Source of the DNA: a virus
IMG/VR virus record: IMGVR_UViG_3300046796_000317
Location: 1-22,963 of that record
Reading direction: 5' to 3' (one strand)
Length of the DNA stretch: 22,963 nt
The translations under genes and the position numbers were made by a program. The first letter of the stretch is position 1. The number at the start of each line of letters is the position of its first letter. This document shows positions 11,541 to 19,992 of the stretch, piece by piece. The notes beneath the pieces were generated by a model. The model was not told the DNA's origin, did not search any database, and saw only the letters and a list, made by a program, of their open reading frames with translations.

Positions 11541-11643
11541 GCCACGGCGGGGCGCGGGTGGGCGGTGCTTGTGGGAAGTGTCCGCCCTGCGGTTGGGACC
11601 GCGCCCCGCTGGCGTTCAACAGCAACCCGAGGAGCGAAACGCG

Positions 11644-12801
11644 ATGGCCGAAACATCGAAAATCCAGTGGACCGATTCGACATTCAATCCCTGGGAAGGA
11701 TGTTCCAAGGTGTCGCCCGGCTGCCAGAACTGTTACGCCGAGGCCCGGGCCAACCGCTGGAAGTCGGTGCAGTGGGGCCCGCACGGCACCCGCCGCGTCG
11801 CGGCCGAATCGAAATGGGAAGAACCGTTCAAGTGGTCCCGCGACGCCGCGGCCGCCGGCGAGCGGCGCCGGGTGTTCTGCGCGTCGCTCGCGGACGTGTT
11901 CGAGGATTGGAAAGGGCCGATGGTCAACGCGAAGGGCGACGTCCTTTGGCACAAGAGCGGAGCAATCGTCAGGGCGGGTCAGACGACGCCAGCGCTCGTC
12001 CTGGGGGAACGGCCGGCCACGATGAACGACGTGCGAACGCTACTCTGGCAGACGATCGACGCCACGCCGAACCTCGACTGGCTGCTGCTGACAAAGCGGC
12101 CTGAGAACGTCCTGCGCTTCGTCTACGATGCGTGGTGCAAGCGCGTGCCGGGGCATGTGTCCCAAAACGAAGGCGACGGCCGACGCTGGCATTTCCCGCC
12201 CAACGTCTGGCTGGGCGTCTCGGTCGAGGATCAACAGCGGGCCGACGAGCGGATCCCGATCCTGTTGTCGATCCCCGCGGCGCTGCGGTTCCTGTCGATC
12301 GAGCCGCAGCTCGGGCCGGTCGACCTGACCAGGGTTGACGGCAAACGAGAGGGTAAATTCAACGCATTCACGGGCCGGCTGGATCACTGGAAAGGCGTCA
12401 GAGTTCACCCAAAGGGAATTGATTGGGTGATCGTCGGCGGCGAGAGCGGCCCCGGCGCCCGGCCGTTCGACCTGGCCTGGGCGCGTTCGCTCCGCGACCA
12501 GTGCGCCGCGGCTCGCGTGGCGTTCTTCATGAAGCAGGCCGGGGCGCGTCCGTACACGATGGAGCAAGATCCGACCTACGCCTGCGAGCATGAGGAGGAA
12601 CGGACGCTGCGCCTGCTCGACCGCAAGGGCGGCGACCTGGCCGAGCTGCCCGAGGACCTGCGCGTGCGGCAGTTCCCGCGGGCCGCGGTTCGCGCGTGCC
12701 GCGTGTGCCGTTGCACCGACGCCGACTGCTCGGGTTGCATCGCGCGAACCGGCGAGCCGTGCCACTGGGTCGAGGCGGATCTCTGCTCGGCGTGCGTGTG
12801 A
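11644..12801 (+). CDS. DUF5131 (phage Gp37/Gp68) protein with Cys-rich C-terminus
   Basis: 385 residues from ATG 11644 (GAGGAG at 11629-11634). The N-terminus IQWTDSTFNPWEGCSKVSPG followed by CQNCYAE gives a C-x6-C-x2-C cluster (C20, C27, C30), the hallmark of DUF5131, a family often described as radical-SAM-like. Further family blocks are FCASLADVFEDW, LLLTKRPEN, VWLGVSVEDQ, RFLSIEPQLGP, and WVIVGGESGPGARPFD then FFMKQAG. Residues from about 350 add a second module, CRVCRCTDADCSGC, HWVEADLCSAC, probably a zinc-binding extension. Known homologs occur in phages and mobile elements without a settled reaction. Its position before ParB-like and ABC-GNAT genes suggests nucleic acid modification. 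Confidence 0.85.
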   Translation: MAETSKIQWTDSTFNPWEGCSKVSPGCQNCYAEARANRWKSVQWGPHGTRRVAAESKWEEPFKWSRDAAAAGERRRVFCASLADVFEDWKGPMVNAKGDVLWHKSGAIVRAGQTTPALVLGERPATMNDVRTLLWQTIDATPNLDWLLLTKRPENVLRFVYDAWCKRVPGHVSQNEGDGRRWHFPPNVWLGVSVEDQQRADERIPILLSIPAALRFLSIEPQLGPVDLTRVDGKREGKFNAFTGRLDHWKGVRVHPKGIDWVIVGGESGPGARPFDLAWARSLRDQCAAARVAFFMKQAGARPYTMEQDPTYACEHEEERTLRLLDRKGGDLAELPEDLRVRQFPRAAVRACRVCRCTDADCSGCIARTGEPCHWVEADLCSACV

Positions 12802-12814
12802 CCGAGGGCCAGGA

Positions 12815-13066
12815 ATGAAAAAGCTCATCCGCGACATGACCGAACCGGAGCTGCGGGCGTTCTTCAACGGCATCGCGGCCTGGCTCGAAAACGCACTGCC
12901 GCCCGGCCCCAGCGCGAAGGGGAAATGCCTCTTCGCGCTCCTGGTGACCGACACCCTGGAGCCGGGGATCGCCCAGTACGCGAGCAACGTGCAGCGGGCC
13001 GACATGGTCAAGATGCTCCGCGAGACGGCCGATCGACTCGAAAACCGTGAGGACGTGCCCCGGTGA
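12815..13066 (+). CDS. Small helical hypothetical protein
   Basis: 83 residues from ATG 12815. Predicted all-helical: LIRDMTEPELRAFFNGIAAW, then PSAKGKCLFALLVTDTLEPG, then VKMLRETADRLENRE. It starts 13 bases after the DUF5131 gene and its stop overlaps the next GTG start (GTGA, 13063-13066). Unrecognised. Confidence 0.6.
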   Translation: MKKLIRDMTEPELRAFFNGIAAWLENALPPGPSAKGKCLFALLVTDTLEPGIAQYASNVQRADMVKMLRETADRLENREDVPR

Positions 13067-13689
13067 AAAACCGCCCCAAGTCGCCGCGAAAACCGCCCCC
13101 GAAACCGCCGACCGAACCGGCGAATCCGACACCTAAAAAAGGGGCGGGCCGCCCGGCCCTCCGGCTGGAATGGCGAACGCCCGCGGAGCTGGCCGATAAC
13201 CCGGCCAACTGGCGCGTCCACCCCGACGCGCAGATCGCGGCCCTGACCGACGTCGTCGCCGAGGTCGACTGGGCCGGCGCGTGCCTCTACAACGAACGGA
13301 CCAAACGCCTGATCGACGGCCACGCCCGTAAGAAGATCGCGGTCGAGCAGGGGGTGAAGCGGGTGCCGGTGCTGGTCGGCTCGTGGTCGAAGGAGCAGGA
13401 GGCGAAGATCCTCGCCACGCTGGACCCCTTGAGCGCGATGGCGACCGCCGACGCCGACAAGCTCAATGCGCTCTTGGAGTCGGTGCAGACCGACTCGGAG
13501 CCGCTCACCCGGCTGTTGGAGAAACTGGCGAAGGCCAACCCGATCAACGACGGGTCCGCCGGCGACCAGTCCGGCGACCTCGACGAGAAATTCCACATCC
13601 TGGTCGAGTGTCGAACCGAGCGGCAACAGGCGACCTTACTCAAACGGTTTGCAAAGGAGGGGTTGACGTGCCGCAGTTTGATCTCGTGA
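13063..13689 (+). CDS. ParB-like nuclease-domain protein
   Basis: 208 residues from GTG 13063. After a basic, proline-rich leader (1-30) comes a ParB/Srx-type domain: LADNPANWRVHPDAQIAALT, then LYNERTKRLIDGHARKKIA (box II, LIDGHAR at 83-89), then VPVLVGSW and EQEAKILATLD. In many phage relatives this domain is followed by a DNA methylase; here that is absent and only the small C-terminal domain FHILVECRTERQQATLLKRF remains (residues 177-196). Such proteins are thought to bind or nick DNA and to pair with modification enzymes. Its end overlaps the ABC-GNAT gene by 22 bases. Confidence 0.75.
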   Translation: MKNRPKSPRKPPPKPPTEPANPTPKKGAGRPALRLEWRTPAELADNPANWRVHPDAQIAALTDVVAEVDWAGACLYNERTKRLIDGHARKKIAVEQGVKRVPVLVGSWSKEQEAKILATLDPLSAMATADADKLNALLESVQTDSEPLTRLLEKLAKANPINDGSAGDQSGDLDEKFHILVECRTERQQATLLKRFAKEGLTCRSLIS

Positions 13690-14801
13690 GATCGGTTGCC
13701 GTGAAACGATCGCCGCGGGTCCTTCAGCTCGAAGGGTTGTTCGACGTCCCGCCGACGACTCGCAGCAGTCAGTCCTGGAAAATCGACTTGCCGATCGAGG
13801 ACGGCAAGCCGTGGAACATCGGTTTGATCGTGGGCCCGTCCGGCAGCGGCAAGTCGACCGTGGCCCGCTCGGCGTTCGCCGATCACCTGGTCGAGGGATA
13901 CCACTGGCCCGCGGACAAGTCGATCGTCGACGCCTTCCCGGCAAAGATGGGGATCAAAGAGATTGTGGGCGCGTTGTCGTCGGTCGGTTTTTCGTCGCCG
14001 CCGGCGTGGCTGCGGCCGTTCGCGTGCCTGTCGAACGGCGAGCAGTTCCGCGCGACGATGGCCCGCGCCCTGGCCGAGTCGCCCGACCTGTGCGTGATGG
14101 ACGAATTCACGTCGGTGGTCGATCGCACCGTCGCCCAGGTCGGCAGCGCGGCGATCGCCAAGAGCGTGCGCCGGGCCGGGAAACAGTTCATCGCCGTAAC
14201 GTGCCACTTCGACGTCCTCGACTGGCTGCAACCGGATTGGGTTTTGGAAATGCCGCTCGGGACCTTCACCCGGAGGTTGCTTCGACGACGCCCAAAAATC
14301 CGGCTCACGATTGCCCGCGTGCATCGTTCGTCTTGGCAACTATTCAAACACCATCACTATTTAGACACGTCGATTGCCCCGACGTCGCGGTCGTTCGTCG
14401 CGTTCGTGGGCGAGCGGCCGGTCGCGTTTACGGCCGTCGTTCACGCGATGGGAAAAGCCAACTATTGGCGCGAGCATCGCACCGTCTGCCTGCCCGACTT
14501 CCAGGGCGTGGGGATCGGCAACGCGCTGAGCGAATACGTGGCGAGCTTGTTTCAGGCGACGGGGAAAGCGTACGCCTCGACGACGTCGAGCCCGTCGATG
14601 ATCGGCCACCGGGCGCGGTCCCCGCTGTGGCTGTTGACGCGCAAGCCGGGACTGGCGGGCCGAGACACGTCGGAGAAAAAAAGGACGAGCGGGCGGACGG
14701 GCGGTTGGCCCATCCATCGCGCGACCACGCGATTGACGGCTGGCTTCCGCTACGTGGGGCCGGCGCGATTAGAGGAGGCGAGGCGCTTCGGGCTGATCTG
14801 A
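13668..14801 (+). CDS. ABC-type ATPase fused to a GNAT (Mom-like) acetyltransferase domain
   Basis: 377 residues from GTG 13668, with AAAGGAGGGG 5 bases upstream. Residues 45-200 are a complete ABC ATPase: Walker A GPSGSGKST (56-64), signature LSNGE (121-125), Walker B LCVMDE (141-146) and switch histidine H180. There is no membrane domain, so it is not a transporter. Residues 211-330 form a GNAT-like fold: WQLFKHHHYLDTS, VAFVGERPVAFTAVV, and the acetyl-CoA pyrophosphate loop LPDFQGVGIGNALSEYVA (QGVGIG at 279-284). The HHYL segment and REHR...LPDFQG pattern recall Mu Mom and its phage relatives, which modify adenine in DNA. A DNA-modifying role is inferred. Its last 33 bases overlap the convergent ASCH gene. 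Confidence 0.85.
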   Translation: MPQFDLVRSVAVKRSPRVLQLEGLFDVPPTTRSSQSWKIDLPIEDGKPWNIGLIVGPSGSGKSTVARSAFADHLVEGYHWPADKSIVDAFPAKMGIKEIVGALSSVGFSSPPAWLRPFACLSNGEQFRATMARALAESPDLCVMDEFTSVVDRTVAQVGSAAIAKSVRRAGKQFIAVTCHFDVLDWLQPDWVLEMPLGTFTRRLLRRRPKIRLTIARVHRSSWQLFKHHHYLDTSIAPTSRSFVAFVGERPVAFTAVVHAMGKANYWREHRTVCLPDFQGVGIGNALSEYVASLFQATGKAYASTTSSPSMIGHRARSPLWLLTRKPGLAGRDTSEKKRTSGRTGGWPIHRATTRLTAGFRYVGPARLEEARRFGLI

Positions 14802-15176
14802 GCTGGCCGGGGCGGCAGCGGCCAGGACGTGGCCAGGCACGTCGAACAGGCCCTGCGCTCCACGGTAGGGGATGGGTGACGAGAATGGCTGAGGGTTGCG
14901 TAGGAGCCAGCAGAACGGGCCCTCCGCGAACGGCTGCCCCAGGACCTCGGCGAGCCGCACACAATCGACGACCTCGACCGTGCCGATCAGGGCGCCGAAC
15001 GCGAGGGCCGCCGGCTCGGGTTCCCCGACGCCGTAATGGCCCAGGCGGCGCCGGTTCTTGCCGGCGTGGATCAGGAGCGGGCCGCGGTGGTACGTCAGCC
15101 AGGTGCGGTTTTCAATCCGCTTGGGGCCGTGCACGATCGCCCAGGCCCACGGCTGCTGAACCGAGAGCGCTTTCAC
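14769..15176 (-). CDS. ASCH-domain protein
   Basis: 135 residues on the minus strand from GTG 15176, with GGAAGGGG upstream. The start KALSVQQPWAWAIVHGPKRI, then ENRTWLTYHRGPLLIHAGK, is the ASCH-domain core, a beta-barrel related to PUA that binds RNA or nucleosides. FGALIGTVEVVDCVRL is the central strand pair and GPFCWLLRNPQPF the final conserved block. Phage ASCH proteins are common; some family members hydrolyse N4-acetylcytidine, others are thought to act with antitoxins. The start overlaps the XRE gene's stop (GTGA), so the two are co-translated. Confidence 0.85.
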   Translation of the reverse strand: MKALSVQQPWAWAIVHGPKRIENRTWLTYHRGPLLIHAGKNRRRLGHYGVGEPEPAALAFGALIGTVEVVDCVRLAEVLGQPFAEGPFCWLLRNPQPFSSPIPYRGAQGLFDVPGHVLAAAAPASSDQPEAPRLL

Positions 15177-15352
15177 GTACGCCCCCCTTCCGGGAACAGG
15201 ACTTCGATCAGGCGGCGGGTCGCGGCGTTCATCTTGCGGCGGCCGTACTCCCACTGCTGGTAGGTCACGATCGCCACGCCCAACTTGTTGGCCATTTCCT
15301 GCTGGGTCATTTGCTCGCGTTCGCGCAAGGCTTTCAGGTCCGCCGGTTTCAT
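15173..15352 (-). CDS. Small XRE-family HTH regulator
   Basis: 59 residues from ATG 15352 (minus strand), with AGGGGG about 7 bases upstream. LKALREREQMTQQEMANKLG, then VAIVTYQQWEYGRRKMN, is a complete Cro/C1-type helix-turn-helix, and little else is present. It precedes and overlaps the ASCH gene, and lies divergent from the 15390 gene, with paired TGACTACAA repeats between them that could be its operator. Confidence 0.85.
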   Translation of the reverse strand: MKPADLKALREREQMTQQEMANKLGVAIVTYQQWEYGRRKMNAATRRLIEVLFPEGGRT

Positions 15353-15372
15353 GTCGCATCCCCCTATGTCAG

Positions 15373-15399
15373 TGACTACAATACGACCCATGACTACAA
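15373..15399. promoter_or_regulatory. Paired TGACTACAA repeats, possible operator
   Basis: TGACTACAA occurs at 15373-15381 and again at 15391-15399, start-to-start 18 bases. They sit in the 37-base divergent gap between the XRE gene (start 15352) and the zinc-ribbon gene (start 15390), the second overlapping the latter's start codon. Binding by the XRE protein here would repress both. Seen: the repeats. Inferred: their use. Confidence 0.4.
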
Positions 15400-15614
15400 A
15401 ATGCCCGCGCTGCGGTCGACCGCTGAGCCAGGTCGGCGAGGCGACGGTGGACGGCACGACGACCTACCCGGTTTTCCAATGTGACGACTGCATCGTTCAG
15501 GCCGACCTCGGCGGGGCCCAGTTCCCCGCCGCCTTCACGTTCGCGCTCGACGCCGACGGCCGGCCGTTCGACCCGGCCTCACCCGGCGACCCGCTTCCAG
15601 ACGGCGGCCAGTGA
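15390..15614 (+). CDS. Small zinc-ribbon phage protein
   Basis: 74 residues from ATG 15390. CPRCGRPL near the N-terminus and CDDC further on form a zinc ribbon. The second half, FPAAFTFALDADGRPFDPAS, is a motif I recognise from small phage proteins of unknown role. No good ribosome site is visible, so an ATG at 15368 is an alternative. The gene is isolated on the plus strand between minus-strand genes, and its last 36 bases overlap the convergent amidotransferase gene. Confidence 0.62.
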   Translation: MTTKCPRCGRPLSQVGEATVDGTTTYPVFQCDDCIVQADLGGAQFPAAFTFALDADGRPFDPASPGDPLPDGGQ

Positions 15615-16292
15615 GTTGTACACCACGTCCTTCTGATACCCGAACGTGTGGACGCTGCCGTTGCGGATCGCTTGCGGCTTGCCGGGCAGCTCGTCCGCGA
15701 GACTCCCGATATAAAGACCGTTTTTGTTCTTCCCGAAGTGCAGCGGGTTCCCCCGACGGACCACGACCAACCGGCCCGGGCGGCTCCACAACCCGAGCAT
15801 GACCAGCGGTTGCGACTGGTCGAACAGCCCGCCCGCCGGCGGCGCGGCGAGTCGGACCGCCTCGGCGCAGCGGGTGGTGAGGCTGCCGCTGAGCTGTTCG
15901 ACGAGTAACCCCAGGACCTCGGAGTCGCAGTGGGTCACCGGGGCGAGCCCGTGGCGGTCGATTACCCGCTGATATTCGGGCAGGGTGCCATTGTGCACGA
16001 CCCAGCCGCCGTCGGCGGGGTGCGGGTGGTTGTTGACGTTGCTCCGATAGTCGCCGTGGGTGGCGTAGCGGCAGTGGCCGATCAGCATCCGCGCGTCGGC
16101 CGCCATCGCGAGCAGGCCGAGCGAATCCGTGATCCGGCCCGTTTGCTTGAAGCAGTGGAGCCGGCCCTTGCTGTCGACCCACGCGAACCCGAAGGCGTGC
16201 GGGCCGCGTTGCTCAGTTACTTCCGCGATCCGCTTGACGCGGCCCAGGTCCATCTTGCCACCGTTCGACACAAAGGCGAATACACCGCACAT
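15579..16292 (-). CDS. Class II glutamine amidotransferase (stand-alone)
   Basis: 237-residue N-terminal-nucleophile glutaminase domain, releasing ammonia from glutamine. It starts with MCGVFAFVSN, so Cys2 would become the catalytic N-terminal nucleophile after Met removal. Other family signatures follow: EQRGPHAFGFAW (27-38), CRYATHGDY (74-82, substrate-binding Arg and THG), NNHPHPADGGWVVHNGTLPE (87-106, oxyanion HNG) and THCDSEVLGLL (120-130). There is no synthase or sugar-isomerase domain as in GlmS, PurF or AsnB, so the ammonia must go to a separate enzyme. An amidoligase gene lies two genes upstream on the same strand. GGAG precedes the start, and its own promoter is at 16338-16366. Confidence 0.9.
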   Translation of the reverse strand: MCGVFAFVSNGGKMDLGRVKRIAEVTEQRGPHAFGFAWVDSKGRLHCFKQTGRITDSLGLLAMAADARMLIGHCRYATHGDYRSNVNNHPHPADGGWVVHNGTLPEYQRVIDRHGLAPVTHCDSEVLGLLVEQLSGSLTTRCAEAVRLAAPPAGGLFDQSQPLVMLGLWSRPGRLVVVRRGNPLHFGKNKNGLYIGSLADELPGKPQAIRNGSVHTFGYQKDVVYNSLAAVWKRVAG

Positions 16293-16337
16293 AGCTGAGA
16301 CTCCAGGAGGGTTATCGGTCGTTTCGGGTACACTTCT

Positions 16338-16366
16338 ATCTTACGCTCAGCGACTGTAAAAGACAA
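16338..16366 (-). promoter_or_regulatory. Promoter of the amidotransferase gene
   Basis: Read on the minus strand: -35 TTGTCT (16361-16366), spacer of 17 bases, -10 TAAGAT (16338-16343). The transcript would begin near 16331, about 40 bases before the start codon. It lies within a conserved block, AAAGACAAGGCTTT on the plus strand (16359-16372), that is repeated upstream of the amidoligase gene. Confidence 0.7.
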
Positions 16367-16372
16367 GGCTTT

Positions 16373-16417
16373 CGGGCGGGGAATGACGGGTTTTTTCCCG
16401 TCAGTTCCCCGCGCCCG
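16373..16417 (-). terminator. Large hairpin, probable terminator of the 16428 gene
   Basis: GACGGG (16385-16390) and CCCGTC (16397-16402) pair around a TTTTTT loop; the stem continues with GGGGAA (16378-16383) against TTCCCC (16405-16410) and an outer CGGG/CCCG. It begins 11 bases after the stop of the minus-strand gene ending at 16428 and is followed in that direction by a T-rich CTTGTCTTTT. It thus separates this gene from the amidotransferase promoter. Confidence 0.55.
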
Positions 16418-16427
16418 TTCGCCCGTC

Positions 16428-16820
16428 TCAGTTCCGCACCAGCATCCCATTCACCATTCGGCACCCGCGGTACGATCGTGGGAAGTAGTGGCGGAACGTG
16501 GCGTGCGCCAGGTGAAGCGCCGCGCGTCGGCTGAGCCCGCACGCCGCAGCGAAGCAGAACAAGTACGTGACCACCGACAGCCGGCCGCGGAGCAGGATCT
16601 TGTTTTTCACCGGGTCGAACCGGCTCTCGCCGCTCGCCGCGTTGGGTTCGCTGTCGTCGCGGAGCAACATCGTTTCCAGGTTGTAGGCGTTGGTCAACCC
16701 GCGGTGCAGCTCGGCGAACTTGTCGCCCCGTTCCTCGATCGACCCTTGCCACGGCTTCGCGTCGCGGAACGCCTTGACCGCCGTTTTCGCTGCCGCGTTC
16801 AGACTGAATTCGCTGCGCAT
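16428..16820 (-). CDS. Metallopeptidase-like phage protein lacking HExxH
   Basis: 130 residues from ATG 16820 with AAAGG upstream. It begins MRSEFSLNAAAKTAVKAF, has KFAELHRGLTNAYNLET, then SRFDPVKNKILLRGRLSVVT and a hydrophobic helix YLFCFAAACGL (86-96), ending FRHYFPRSYRGC and MLVR. I associate this layout with phage proteins in which the helix reads YLHEFAHALG, a zinc-peptidase HExxH. In this copy that stretch is LFCFAAA, so both histidines and the glutamate are gone. It could be a catalytically dead scaffold between the amidotransferase and amidoligase. The family comparison is from memory; the missing residues are seen. Confidence 0.6.
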   Translation of the reverse strand: MRSEFSLNAAAKTAVKAFRDAKPWQGSIEERGDKFAELHRGLTNAYNLETMLLRDDSEPNAASGESRFDPVKNKILLRGRLSVVTYLFCFAAACGLSRRAALHLAHATFRHYFPRSYRGCRMVNGMLVRN

Positions 16821-16854
16821 GTTCGTTTCCTTTATTCGTGCGGACTTTGGACCG

Positions 16855-16875
16855 CCCGCCCCACGCTGGGGCGGG
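16855..16875. other. Intergenic hairpin after the amidoligase gene
   Basis: CCCGCCCC (16855-16862) and GGGGCGGG (16868-16875) form a perfect 8-base stem with a 5-base loop, 37 bases past the amidoligase stop in the direction of transcription. No T run follows, so full termination is doubtful; attenuation before the next gene (start 16820) or mRNA end protection is more likely. Confidence 0.5.
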
Positions 16876-16911
16876 TGCATTAACCGGGCGTGGGCGGCCC
16901 GGCCCATCTGC

Positions 16912-17958
16912 TTAGAACTCCAAGGGGGCGGGGGCGGCCGGGGCGACGATCGGGGCGACCCGCAGATATTGCAAGCGGATCCGGTAGCGGCGTCCGCTGG
17001 TGAACTGCACGACCGGCACGCAACGGGGACGGCGAAGAACGACCATTCCCTCTTGCCCGTGCTGGAAGCCGAACCCGCCCGGATATTCGACCGTGACCCG
17101 CGTGCCGACCGGAAAGGCCGCGTTGCCCGTCGTCGCCACCGGCACCGGCGCATCGTATTTCTTGGCGAGCCGCATCAGTTCCTTTTTCGTCCCTTTCAGG
17201 CTCGGCACCCGTTCGCCGGCGAGGTTGCCGTGTACGTGGCTCTGACGGCCTTTCGTCCATCCGAGCTGATAGAAAAGCCGATTCATGGCCGTCTCACCCG
17301 CGCCGCCCCGGTGGATCGGCGACGATTCGACGGGCGTCTTAGCGGTCCAGTTCGTCACCTTCGCGGCCCGCAGGGCCCGTTCCACCAGCCCAACACACAA
17401 GCGGATATACCCGACCAGTTTCACCGGGTTGAGGGTCGCGCCGAAGGCCCGGAACTCCACCGTCGGGTTGCAACTGCTCAGGTTCGCGACGTAATAACGG
17501 TTGTTGCGATTCGCCTGGACGGCGCGGGCGGCGTCGCCGTGCCGATTGATCCCGTGGCACCAGCGGCCCGTCTCGCGGCTCTTGCTCCCCGTCGAGGCGA
17601 AAATCGCCTTTTCGAAGTTGGCGACCAGCGTCAGGAGCTTCTCGACGGCGACCGTGTCGGTTTTGTTGAAACCGACGTGGACGTGGAGCCCGCAGCTCGC
17701 GTTGACCTTCGCCCCCATCCCCTTGATCACGGCCAGATCGGCGAGCAACTGCTGAAGGCCCGCGGACCCCGTGAACACGGGGGAGACGAATTCGCAGGCG
17801 ACGTGACCGCGGGTGGCGCGGATGGACGGGTCGTTGTCGGCTTTCCAGCCGGTCAACTGCGGGATGGCGGCCCCGCGGCTGTGCGGCCCGACCAGAATGG
17901 TGCCGGCGGGGATGGTCGTTTCAATCTCAACTCCGAAGGTCATTTGTTCCACGTTCAT
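16912..17958 (-). CDS. Amidoligase-family protein (PF12224-like) with C-terminal SH3-like domain
   Basis: 348 residues from ATG 17958 with GGGAGA upstream. It carries the blocks of the COOH-NH2 ligase/amidoligase family, an ATP-dependent glutamine-synthetase-like fold: FGVEIETT (8-15), CEFVSPVF (55-62), ASCGLHVHVG (87-96) and TVEFRAFGATLNP (166-178). The acidic and histidine residues would bind Mg-ATP. After residue 280 a short beta domain follows (PVGTRVTVEYPG, then GMVVLRR, then VVQFTSGRRYRI), resembling an SH3/KOW fold. Known relatives often sit with glutamine amidotransferases or cyclotransferases and are predicted to make peptide-like bonds. A glutaminase gene lies two genes downstream and shares its promoter type. 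The substrate is unknown. Confidence 0.82.
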   Translation of the reverse strand: MNVEQMTFGVEIETTIPAGTILVGPHSRGAAIPQLTGWKADNDPSIRATRGHVACEFVSPVFTGSAGLQQLLADLAVIKGMGAKVNASCGLHVHVGFNKTDTVAVEKLLTLVANFEKAIFASTGSKSRETGRWCHGINRHGDAARAVQANRNNRYYVANLSSCNPTVEFRAFGATLNPVKLVGYIRLCVGLVERALRAAKVTNWTAKTPVESSPIHRGGAGETAMNRLFYQLGWTKGRQSHVHGNLAGERVPSLKGTKKELMRLAKKYDAPVPVATTGNAAFPVGTRVTVEYPGGFGFQHGQEGMVVLRRPRCVPVVQFTSGRRYRIRLQYLRVAPIVAPAAPAPLEF

Positions 17959-18148: not shown

Positions 18149-18247
18149 GCACGCTGGCCCAGGGGCGGCCGCTGCACGCTGCACGCTGCACGCGGCGTAA
18201 CGTCTGCACCGCGTTGCACCACTCTGCACCGCGTTGCACGCTGGCCC
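18149..18247. repeat. TGCAC repeat array before terS (possible packaging or TerS site)
   Basis: Two copies of GCACGCTGGCCC (18149-18160, 18236-18247) bracket the array. Inside are three tandem CTGCACG units (18172-18192, period 7) and two copies of TCTGCACCGCGTTGCAC (18203-18219, 18223-18239, period 20). As a result TGCAC recurs at 18205, 18215, 18225 and 18235, exactly one helical turn apart. It lies about 50 bases upstream of terS, where pac or cos sites and TerS binding sites commonly are. Function is inferred. Confidence 0.6.
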
Positions 18248-18293
18248 GGCGCAACCTGGCCGCCGCAAACGCGGCCCGTGGAGCGTAACGCGC

Positions 18294-18671
18294 GTGAAAC
18301 GTCTAACGGAACCCGTCGTCGCCCAGGCCCTGGAAAAATTCGCCGGCAATATCGCCGCCTGCGCCCGGGCCCTGAAGGTGACGCGGTCGTCCGTTTACGG
18401 CTACATTCAAAGCCGGCCGGCGCTGGTCGAGCTGCTGCAAGACGTGCGCGAGGCCCGGCTCGACAACGCGGAGTCCGCGCTGGAGCGGGCGATCATCGCC
18501 GGCGAGGCGTGGGCGGTCTGCTTCACGCTCAAGACACTGGGCAAGGAACGGGGGTACGTCGAGCGGACCGAGCACCGGCACGGCGGCGATCCCGACAATC
18601 AAACGCCGATCCCGATTGCCCGCGAGGTCATTATCGAGGTCCCCCGTGAGTCTCTGGACGACGGACAATGA
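18294..18671 (+). CDS. terS: Terminase small subunit
   Basis: 125 residues from GTG 18294 with GGAG about 10 bases upstream; earlier in-frame starts would run into the repeat array. The N-terminal helix-turn-helix LEKFAGNIAACARALKVTRS, then SVYGYIQSRP, fits the DNA-recognition domain of phage small terminases. It is followed by helices LVELLQDVREARLDNAESAL and AIIAGEAWAVCFTLKTLGKE with GY, a block typical of small terminase-like proteins. It would bind the packaging site and load the large subunit. Its end overlaps the large-subunit start by 26 bases. Confidence 0.8.
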   Translation: MKRLTEPVVAQALEKFAGNIAACARALKVTRSSVYGYIQSRPALVELLQDVREARLDNAESALERAIIAGEAWAVCFTLKTLGKERGYVERTEHRHGGDPDNQTPIPIAREVIIEVPRESLDDGQ

Positions 18672-19992
18672 CGCGAAGGTCAAGGCCCGGCTGCACCCGG
18701 GCCAGGCCCGCGCCTGGCGTAGCGACAAGCGTCTGATCGCCGTGACCGCCGGCACCCAGAGCGGTAAGACGTCATTCGGTCCCTTGTGGCTCAAGCGCGA
18801 AATCGACCGCCGCGGCGCGGGCGACTATCTGGCCGGCACCGCAAGTTACGACATGTTCAAATTGAAAATGCTCCCCGCCATCCGCGAGACGTTCGAGCAC
18901 GTCTACCGGATCGGCCGCTACTGGGCGGGCGACCGCGTGCTGGAAATCCGCGACCCGGTAACCGAAACGTTCCTCGCGAACCGCGCCGACGACCCCATGT
19001 ATGCCCGCGTGATCCTGCGGTCCGCCGACGCCCCGGGCGGCTGGGAGTCGAGCACGGCCCGGGCCGGCTGGCTCGACGAGGTCGGGCTGTCAAACTTCAC
19101 CTTGGAGATTTACGAGGCGATCATGCGCCGCCTGGCCCTGGCCGTTGGCCGCCTGCTCATGACCACAACCGTCTACGGCCTCGGCTGGCTCAAGCGGAAG
19201 ATTTACGATCCGTGGAAGAAGGCCCGCCGCCGGCACCCGGACATTGACGTGATCCAGTTCGACTCGATCGAGAACCCCACCTTCCCCCGGGCCGAGTGGG
19301 AACGGGCCCGCCGCGACATGCCCGCATACAAGTTTAACCGTGCGTACCGCGGGTTCTTCGACCGACCCACGGGGTTGATCTTCGACGTGTTCGAACCGCT
19401 CACGCACGCCATGCCGCGGTTCCCGATCCCCGACGCCTGGCAGCGCTACGTCGGCCTCGACTTCGGCGGCGCCAACACCGCGGCGGTTTTTTGGGCAGAG
19501 GAGCCATGCAAGCCGCCGCGCTACTACGCCTACCGCGAATACTGGCCGCGCGTGGGGCGCACCGCGAAGCAACACGTCGAGGCGATGATGGAGGGCGAGC
19601 CGCGGCTGCCGACGGCGATCGGCGGCAGCTCAAGCGAAGATCAGTGGCGGTCGGAATTCTCCGCGGCCGGCCTGAGCGTGCGCGAGCCACCGGTGAAGGA
19701 CGTGGAGGTCGGCATTCAACGGGCGTATGCGTTCTTCACCCGTGACCAGATCCGCGTTTTCGACGACCTGGAATACACGCTCGCGGAATTGGAGAATTAC
19801 GGCCGCGTGCTCGACGACACGGGCGAGCCGACCGACAAGATCAAGGACAAGGAAATGTTCCATCTGATTGACGGCGGTTTTCGCTATCTGTTTTCGTGGC
19901 TGGAAAAGGCGCCGAACCGGTTCGACGTGGGCACGCGCGGCGGGCCGACCGGGTCGATCCTCGACGAAATGCCGAGCAGCACGTTTACCTGA
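18646..19992 (+). CDS. terL: Terminase large subunit
   Basis: DNA-packaging ATPase/nuclease of 448 residues from GTG 18646 (GAGGT upstream). ATPase domain: Walker A AGTQSGKTS (35-43), ARAGWLDEVG as Walker B with D144 and E145, and a coupling segment MTTTVYG (172-178). Nuclease domain: VGLDFGGANTAAVFW (269-283) with the first metal-binding Asp (272), and HLIDGGFRYLFSW near the end with another. It would cut concatemers and pump DNA into proheads. Unusually, no portal gene follows: the next genes are on the opposite strand, 6 bases away. Confidence 0.92.
   Translation: MSLWTTDNDAKVKARLHPGQARAWRSDKRLIAVTAGTQSGKTSFGPLWLKREIDRRGAGDYLAGTASYDMFKLKMLPAIRETFEHVYRIGRYWAGDRVLEIRDPVTETFLANRADDPMYARVILRSADAPGGWESSTARAGWLDEVGLSNFTLEIYEAIMRRLALAVGRLLMTTTVYGLGWLKRKIYDPWKKARRRHPDIDVIQFDSIENPTFPRAEWERARRDMPAYKFNRAYRGFFDRPTGLIFDVFEPLTHAMPRFPIPDAWQRYVGLDFGGANTAAVFWAEEPCKPPRYYAYREYWPRVGRTAKQHVEAMMEGEPRLPTAIGGSSSEDQWRSEFSAAGLSVREPPVKDVEVGIQRAYAFFTRDQIRVFDDLEYTLAELENYGRVLDDTGEPTDKIKDKEMFHLIDGGFRYLFSWLEKAPNRFDVGTRGGPTGSILDEMPSSTFT

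Follow-up and report, generated by a model that had tools for sequence, protein, structure and literature searches.

Phage cassettes that combine an amidoligase with a glutamine amidotransferase (GATase) have been annotated for more than a decade, and in the literature covered their roles are predicted or hypothesized. The cassette idea reportedly goes back to Iyer et al. in 2009, whose survey is also said to have linked peptidases to peptide ligases in general. In podoviruses of the RIO-1, phiEco32 and LUZ24 type, both enzymes form part of a predicted "peptidoglycan modification cassette", which would act on peptidoglycan side chains and serve superinfection exclusion (PMC5498523); a later paper repeats this prediction and reports amidoligase and GATase as auxiliary genes of the OM43 phages MEP401 and MEP402 (PMC10580990). 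A gene table has been published for the UFV-P2 cassette, with a GATase of 486 aa (PMC3890496). The pair has also been described as auxiliary genes of phage-ZRK32, which has a Planctomycetes host, carries a glutathione synthase and a GGCT in addition and has genes placed near those of Pseudomonas phages (PMC10945688).

The window analyzed here is the whole 22,963-base stretch of the virus record IMGVR_UViG_3300046796_000317 (66.1% G+C). Its minus strand carries an amidoligase (16912-17958; 348 aa), a protein of predicted zincin fold (16428-16820; 130 aa) and a stand-alone class II GATase, an N-terminal-nucleophile glutaminase (15579-16292; 237 aa). A small HTH DNA-binding protein (15173-15457; PF01381 HTH_3, E = 7.2e-7) belongs to the same gene run, and its stop is overlapped by the probable start of a minus-strand gene for an ASCH-domain (PUA-like) protein (about 14769-15176; PF04266, E = 1.1e-4; PHROG 3193, E = 1.5e-43), which is found beside the cassette again in close relatives. 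The initial annotation had placed the two enzymes two genes apart on one strand, beside terminase genes. Strand, neighborhood, coordinates and all of the sequence motifs that it cited were correct, but a single gene, which it did not mention, separates the enzymes. The small (18234-18671; phrog_4044, E = 1e-4) and large (18616-19992; phrog_2, E = 2.2e-25) terminase subunits lie on the plus strand, divergent from the amidoligase, and the run of amidoligase, zincin and GATase points away from them. At the other end, a plus-strand gene for an ABC-ATPase fused to a GNAT acetyltransferase (13680-14801; PHROG 11143, E = 3.6e-102; PF00005, PF00583) converges on the cassette, a position kept in relatives. 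Adjoining it, there as here, is a protein that we call ParB-like by its appearance (13063-13689, plus strand), for which a Pfam profile search matched no family; in one related contig (L167) the two genes are fused. Further out, the plus strand encodes a DUF5131 protein of the phage Gp37/Gp68 type with clustered cysteines (11569-12801; E = 6.9e-72).

Like the podoviral cassettes, that of the window unites a PF12224 amidoligase and a class II GATase in a single run of tailed-phage genes. The podoviral cassettes add a PF14395 ligase, an ATP-grasp enzyme and a GGCT, have larger GATases and sit among early and replication genes, whereas the cassette of the window lies against the terminase and includes the zincin-fold protein. 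The second ligase, PF14395, was absent from the window, which may be a fragment of a genome, and from eight relatives, while the positive control detected it in the records L004 and L005. The RimK ATP-grasp profile likewise found nothing in the window and eight related phage contigs, with a control positive in 13 genomes; GGCT was absent from the window and present in one of the eight relatives. Conversely, the hypothetical genes of the two podoviral/Arthrobacter-type cassettes that we checked contained no HExxH motif. A similar arrangement is that of Arthrobacter phage Salgado, where gp97, gp98 and gp99 include an amidoligase directly followed by a GATase on one strand, as in the window; there, however, a GGCT (PF06094) precedes the amidoligase, a zincin is lacking, and identity to the window is 29-30%. 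Phage-ZRK32 shares its host phylum with the window. The accessible descriptions of its cassette and of those of MEP401 and MEP402 do not mention a zincin (PMC10945688, PMC10580990), nor did we find mention of one in an amidoligase-GATase cassette in the part of the literature covered. The amidoligase-GATase pair is thus a known kind of phage cassette, already described in LUZ24-like phages, OM43 phages and a single phage of Planctomycetes. The novelty lies in the composition, with a predicted zincin-fold protein as a regular third member of the cassette in this lineage.

The amidoligase matches PF12224 Amidoligase_2 at 60.3 bits (E = 3.5e-16; curated cut-off 22) and PHROG 2443 "amidoligase enzyme" (E = 1.5e-24), which bears out the family that the initial annotation had named from short motifs. 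Residues 1-275 make up the enzyme, and the AF2 model is confident over this part (pLDDT about 95 at 1-270). Its best VIA-align match is YbdK (1r8g; Z = 13.0 over 245 residues), and it also resembles glutamine synthetases (Z about 12) and Dop (Z = 11.7); judged by the model, the protein belongs to the glutamine-synthetase/gamma-glutamyl-ligase fold. E11, E13, E56, H92, E168 and R170 are invariant among 33 relatives. In hhalign, CGLHVHV falls on SGMHCHM of E. coli GlnA, at a probability that is low since GlnA entered as a single sequence, and VEFRAFGATLNP of the amidoligase is similar to IEVRFPDPAANP of GlnA. A C-terminal extension of ~70 residues (about 276-348; 16912-17130) is absent from all aligned relatives in the fetched loci. 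The idea that it is a DUF4314/SH3-like domain gained no support, as it has no profile match, no relatives and low model confidence (low pLDDT at 290-340). We rejected a supposed tie between the second histidine of the HxH motif and GATase occurrence, since both forms are seen with and without a GATase.

The class II glutaminase that the initial annotation had recognized by its motifs is equally clear. The GATase exceeds the curated cut-off of PF13522 GATase_6 (E = 1.7e-8) and matches PHROG 14519 "glutamine amidotransferase" (E = 5e-22); the glutamine-site and nucleophile residues Cys2, R75, N101-G102 and D123 are the same in all 22 relatives compared, and the family profile aligns with the glutaminase domain of GlmS (1xff; E = 9e-27). 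No synthase domain is fused to the GATase of the window, for which we saw no candidate partner other than the amidoligase, and none of the loci examined holds an amidoligase-GATase fusion. The reading that we favor is a stand-alone amidoligase to which a stand-alone GATase would supply ammonia. The initial annotation, which had proposed such a system, is supported in this; it had missed the zincin gene that regularly accompanies the pair in this lineage.

In profile searches, the protein encoded between the enzymes matched neither Pfam nor PHROG. The twelve best VIA-align matches of its AF2 model (pLDDT 91.8, pTM 0.85) are all zincins, at Z = 4.8-6.2, values that can arise by accident. They include SPRTN (6mdw; Z = 6.2), IrrE (3dti; 5.9), jannalysin and selecase (5.9), and further zincins among the top matches are an IrrE-like regulator and CapP; the best Foldseek match in the PDB has E = 0.02. 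We predict the zincin fold because all of the top VIA-align matches agree with an independent HExxH motif. Intact relatives read HEFxHALGxDE at the matching helix, where the window copy reads FCFAAACGLSR. The full HExxHxxGxxE motif, in the form HEFxHAxGxxE, is intact in 6 of 18 aligned family members, and HExxH is kept in 10 of the 25 sequences of the tree set (L061, L014, L092, L018, L011, L091, L165, L166, L218 and L220) and lost in the window copy and 14 others. SPRTN, IrrE/PprI and jannalysin/selecase probably share their fold with the 130-aa protein, whose relatives carry HExxH on the corresponding helix, but the window protein has no sequence match to them and lacks the metal ligands. 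To judge by its residues, it cannot have the usual metallopeptidase activity and is predicted to be a pseudo-peptidase. Between the window and L006, codon positions 1 and 2 of its gene are better conserved than position 3, as in the neighboring genes, and the gene is therefore real and maintained. Parsimony gave two changes between intact and lost motifs; as 7 of the 22 inner branches are well supported and the HExxH-bearing L220 and L218 were scored as lost under the stricter motif, we claim no number of losses.

To define the linkage of the three genes, we scanned IMG/VR with alignments and obtained 80 loci for the amidoligase and as many for the GATase; a search of its viral contigs with the single amidoligase protein gave no matches, whereas the alignment searches succeeded. 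Counting only loci that were found through the amidoligase and had 2.5 kb of downstream sequence, a same-strand GATase lies within 3 kb in 27 of 31 distinct close viral relatives and in 28 of 47 overall, and no GATase profile match lies farther away in the 662 kb of sequence. Linkage of amidoligase and GATase is far beyond chance. Across all loci, the GATase lies downstream of the amidoligase in 149 of 155 pairs, with a median gap of 89 nt. Co-occurrence in related genomes, which the initial annotation had named as a test of its proposal, was thus found; an annotated phage collection adds Arthrobacter, Pseudomonas and Vibrio phages, and this phage is not alone in having the pair.

The position of the zincin varies, as it may precede or follow the GATase. 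A search of IMG/VR from the zincin alone returned 16 loci on 14 distinct contigs; amidoligase and/or GATase adjoin it in 13 of these 14, although the query was built from cassette members and the search is not fully unbiased. Among the 13 is one contig (L261) whose neighboring amidoligase lies on the opposite strand. In two loci (L008, L110) a GGCT stands between amidoligase and GATase, in the place of the zincin, and in a third (L102) GGCT and zincin are both present. One large-phage sequence, represented by three contigs of 112-192 kb (L258, L259, L260), carries a degenerate zincin with neither amidoligase nor GATase within 5 kb, and at L122:3315-5816 a single zincin and a single GATase are accompanied by two amidoligase genes, one on each strand. 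A search for HExxH near amidoligases gave 20 matches, of which several look out of frame or antisense and only two, in L103 and L104, have the appearance of genuine zincin genes. Both lie downstream of the pair: L104:8707-9735 encodes the motif together with LPD5 and LPD1 domains, and L103:9834-10265 encodes a small unclassified protein. Distance correlations are weak throughout (amidoligase-GATase 0.49, GATase-zincin 0.47, amidoligase-zincin 0.18, other neighbors 0.13-0.31), and we place no weight on them. The HTH family is rare among related loci, while the zincin is regular.

As both enzymes match families with complete catalytic motifs and are tightly linked, our main reading, to which we give about an even chance, is that amidoligase, GATase and zincin form a glutamine-dependent amidation cassette acting on a probable peptide carboxylate. 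By the chemistry of their families, the GATase would hydrolyze glutamine to ammonia, and the amidoligase would use ATP to activate a carboxylate as an acyl phosphate and convert it to an amide; we infer that ammonia passes from the former to the latter. Its linkage to both enzymes suggests that the zincin shares their substrate. Where the metal site is intact it could serve as a peptidase, and in the window it may be a non-catalytic partner, binding or presenting that substrate or bringing the two enzymes together. As substrate, a peptide-borne carboxylate is most likely, favored because the partner has a predicted peptidase fold. By analogy with the podoviral prediction, peptidoglycan stem peptides are the leading candidate and a host or phage protein the second; amidation of peptidoglycan would give an altered wall that guards the host against competing phages or lysins. 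A more specific version, which we consider improbable, holds that the dead metallopeptidase has been kept as a substrate receptor that recognizes one particular peptide or protein tail and offers its carboxylate to the enzyme pair, while its live relatives cut the peptide first. If so, a host or virion protein would undergo a cut-and-amidate or bind-and-amidate modification of a kind hitherto not known. The reduced form of this lineage, with two enzymes and one small protein, lends itself to reconstitution more readily than the podoviral form with its seven genes, and a zincin whose active site is intact in some phages and lost in others offers a natural comparison toward finding the substrate.

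Alternatively, the amidoligase-GATase pair could be an auxiliary metabolic module that helps the infected cell with nitrogen assimilation or with making a small gamma-glutamyl metabolite, and the zincin an unrelated passenger. Such a role was proposed by the authors of the work on a Planctomycetes phage of 21.9 kb, which has glutathione synthase and GGCT besides amidoligase and GATase and reportedly promoted growth on nitrate or ammonium; the growth effect was not attributed to single genes (PMC10945688). The RimK-type ATP-grasp enzyme missing from the window and its eight related contigs, and the GGCT missing from the window and all but one of those relatives, speak against this explanation, as does a zincin that is linked in both gene orders, unlike a passenger. 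We regard it as unlikely. Even less probable is that the zincin is an IrrE/ImmA-like regulator, which would control a phage switch via the HTH protein and be linked to the enzymes only through regulating them. IrrE is indeed among the fold matches, and an HTH gene does occur in the same run, but the active site of the window zincin is lost, and a regular zincin contrasts with an HTH family found in few related loci.

It is also conceivable, though again improbable, that the amidoligase joins an amine other than ammonia, as in protein tagging or crosslinking, and that the GATase performs another step or removes the tag as an Ntn hydrolase. The amidoligase fold is common to Dop/PafA and gamma-glutamyl-cysteine ligase, which use such amines, and many prophage amidoligases have no GATase match nearby. 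Against this stand the full glutamine-binding and nucleophile motifs, kept in 22 of 22 GATase relatives, and the best structural kin of the GATase, which are true glutaminases.

The amidation reading and its alternatives concern a cassette that we assign to hosts among the Planctomycetota, because its nearest relatives are there. The nearest amidoligases in GTDB genomes come almost entirely from this phylum, followed by looser relatives in Verrucomicrobiota. Three contigs of Planctomycetota MAGs (L165, L166, L167) carry amidoligase, zincin, GATase and ASCH protein, two of them with the ABC-GNAT gene as well. In 54 related loci, the amidoligase has a divergent terminase gene upstream of it. The same divergent arrangement marks the prophage-like loci L169-L193, from chromosomes and MAGs of Rhodopirellula, Stieleria, Rubripirellula and their kin, in which a GATase profile match is absent; in these many planctomycete prophages, the GATase is therefore dispensable or replaced. 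Many of these loci have a small DUF4314 gene downstream of the amidoligase.
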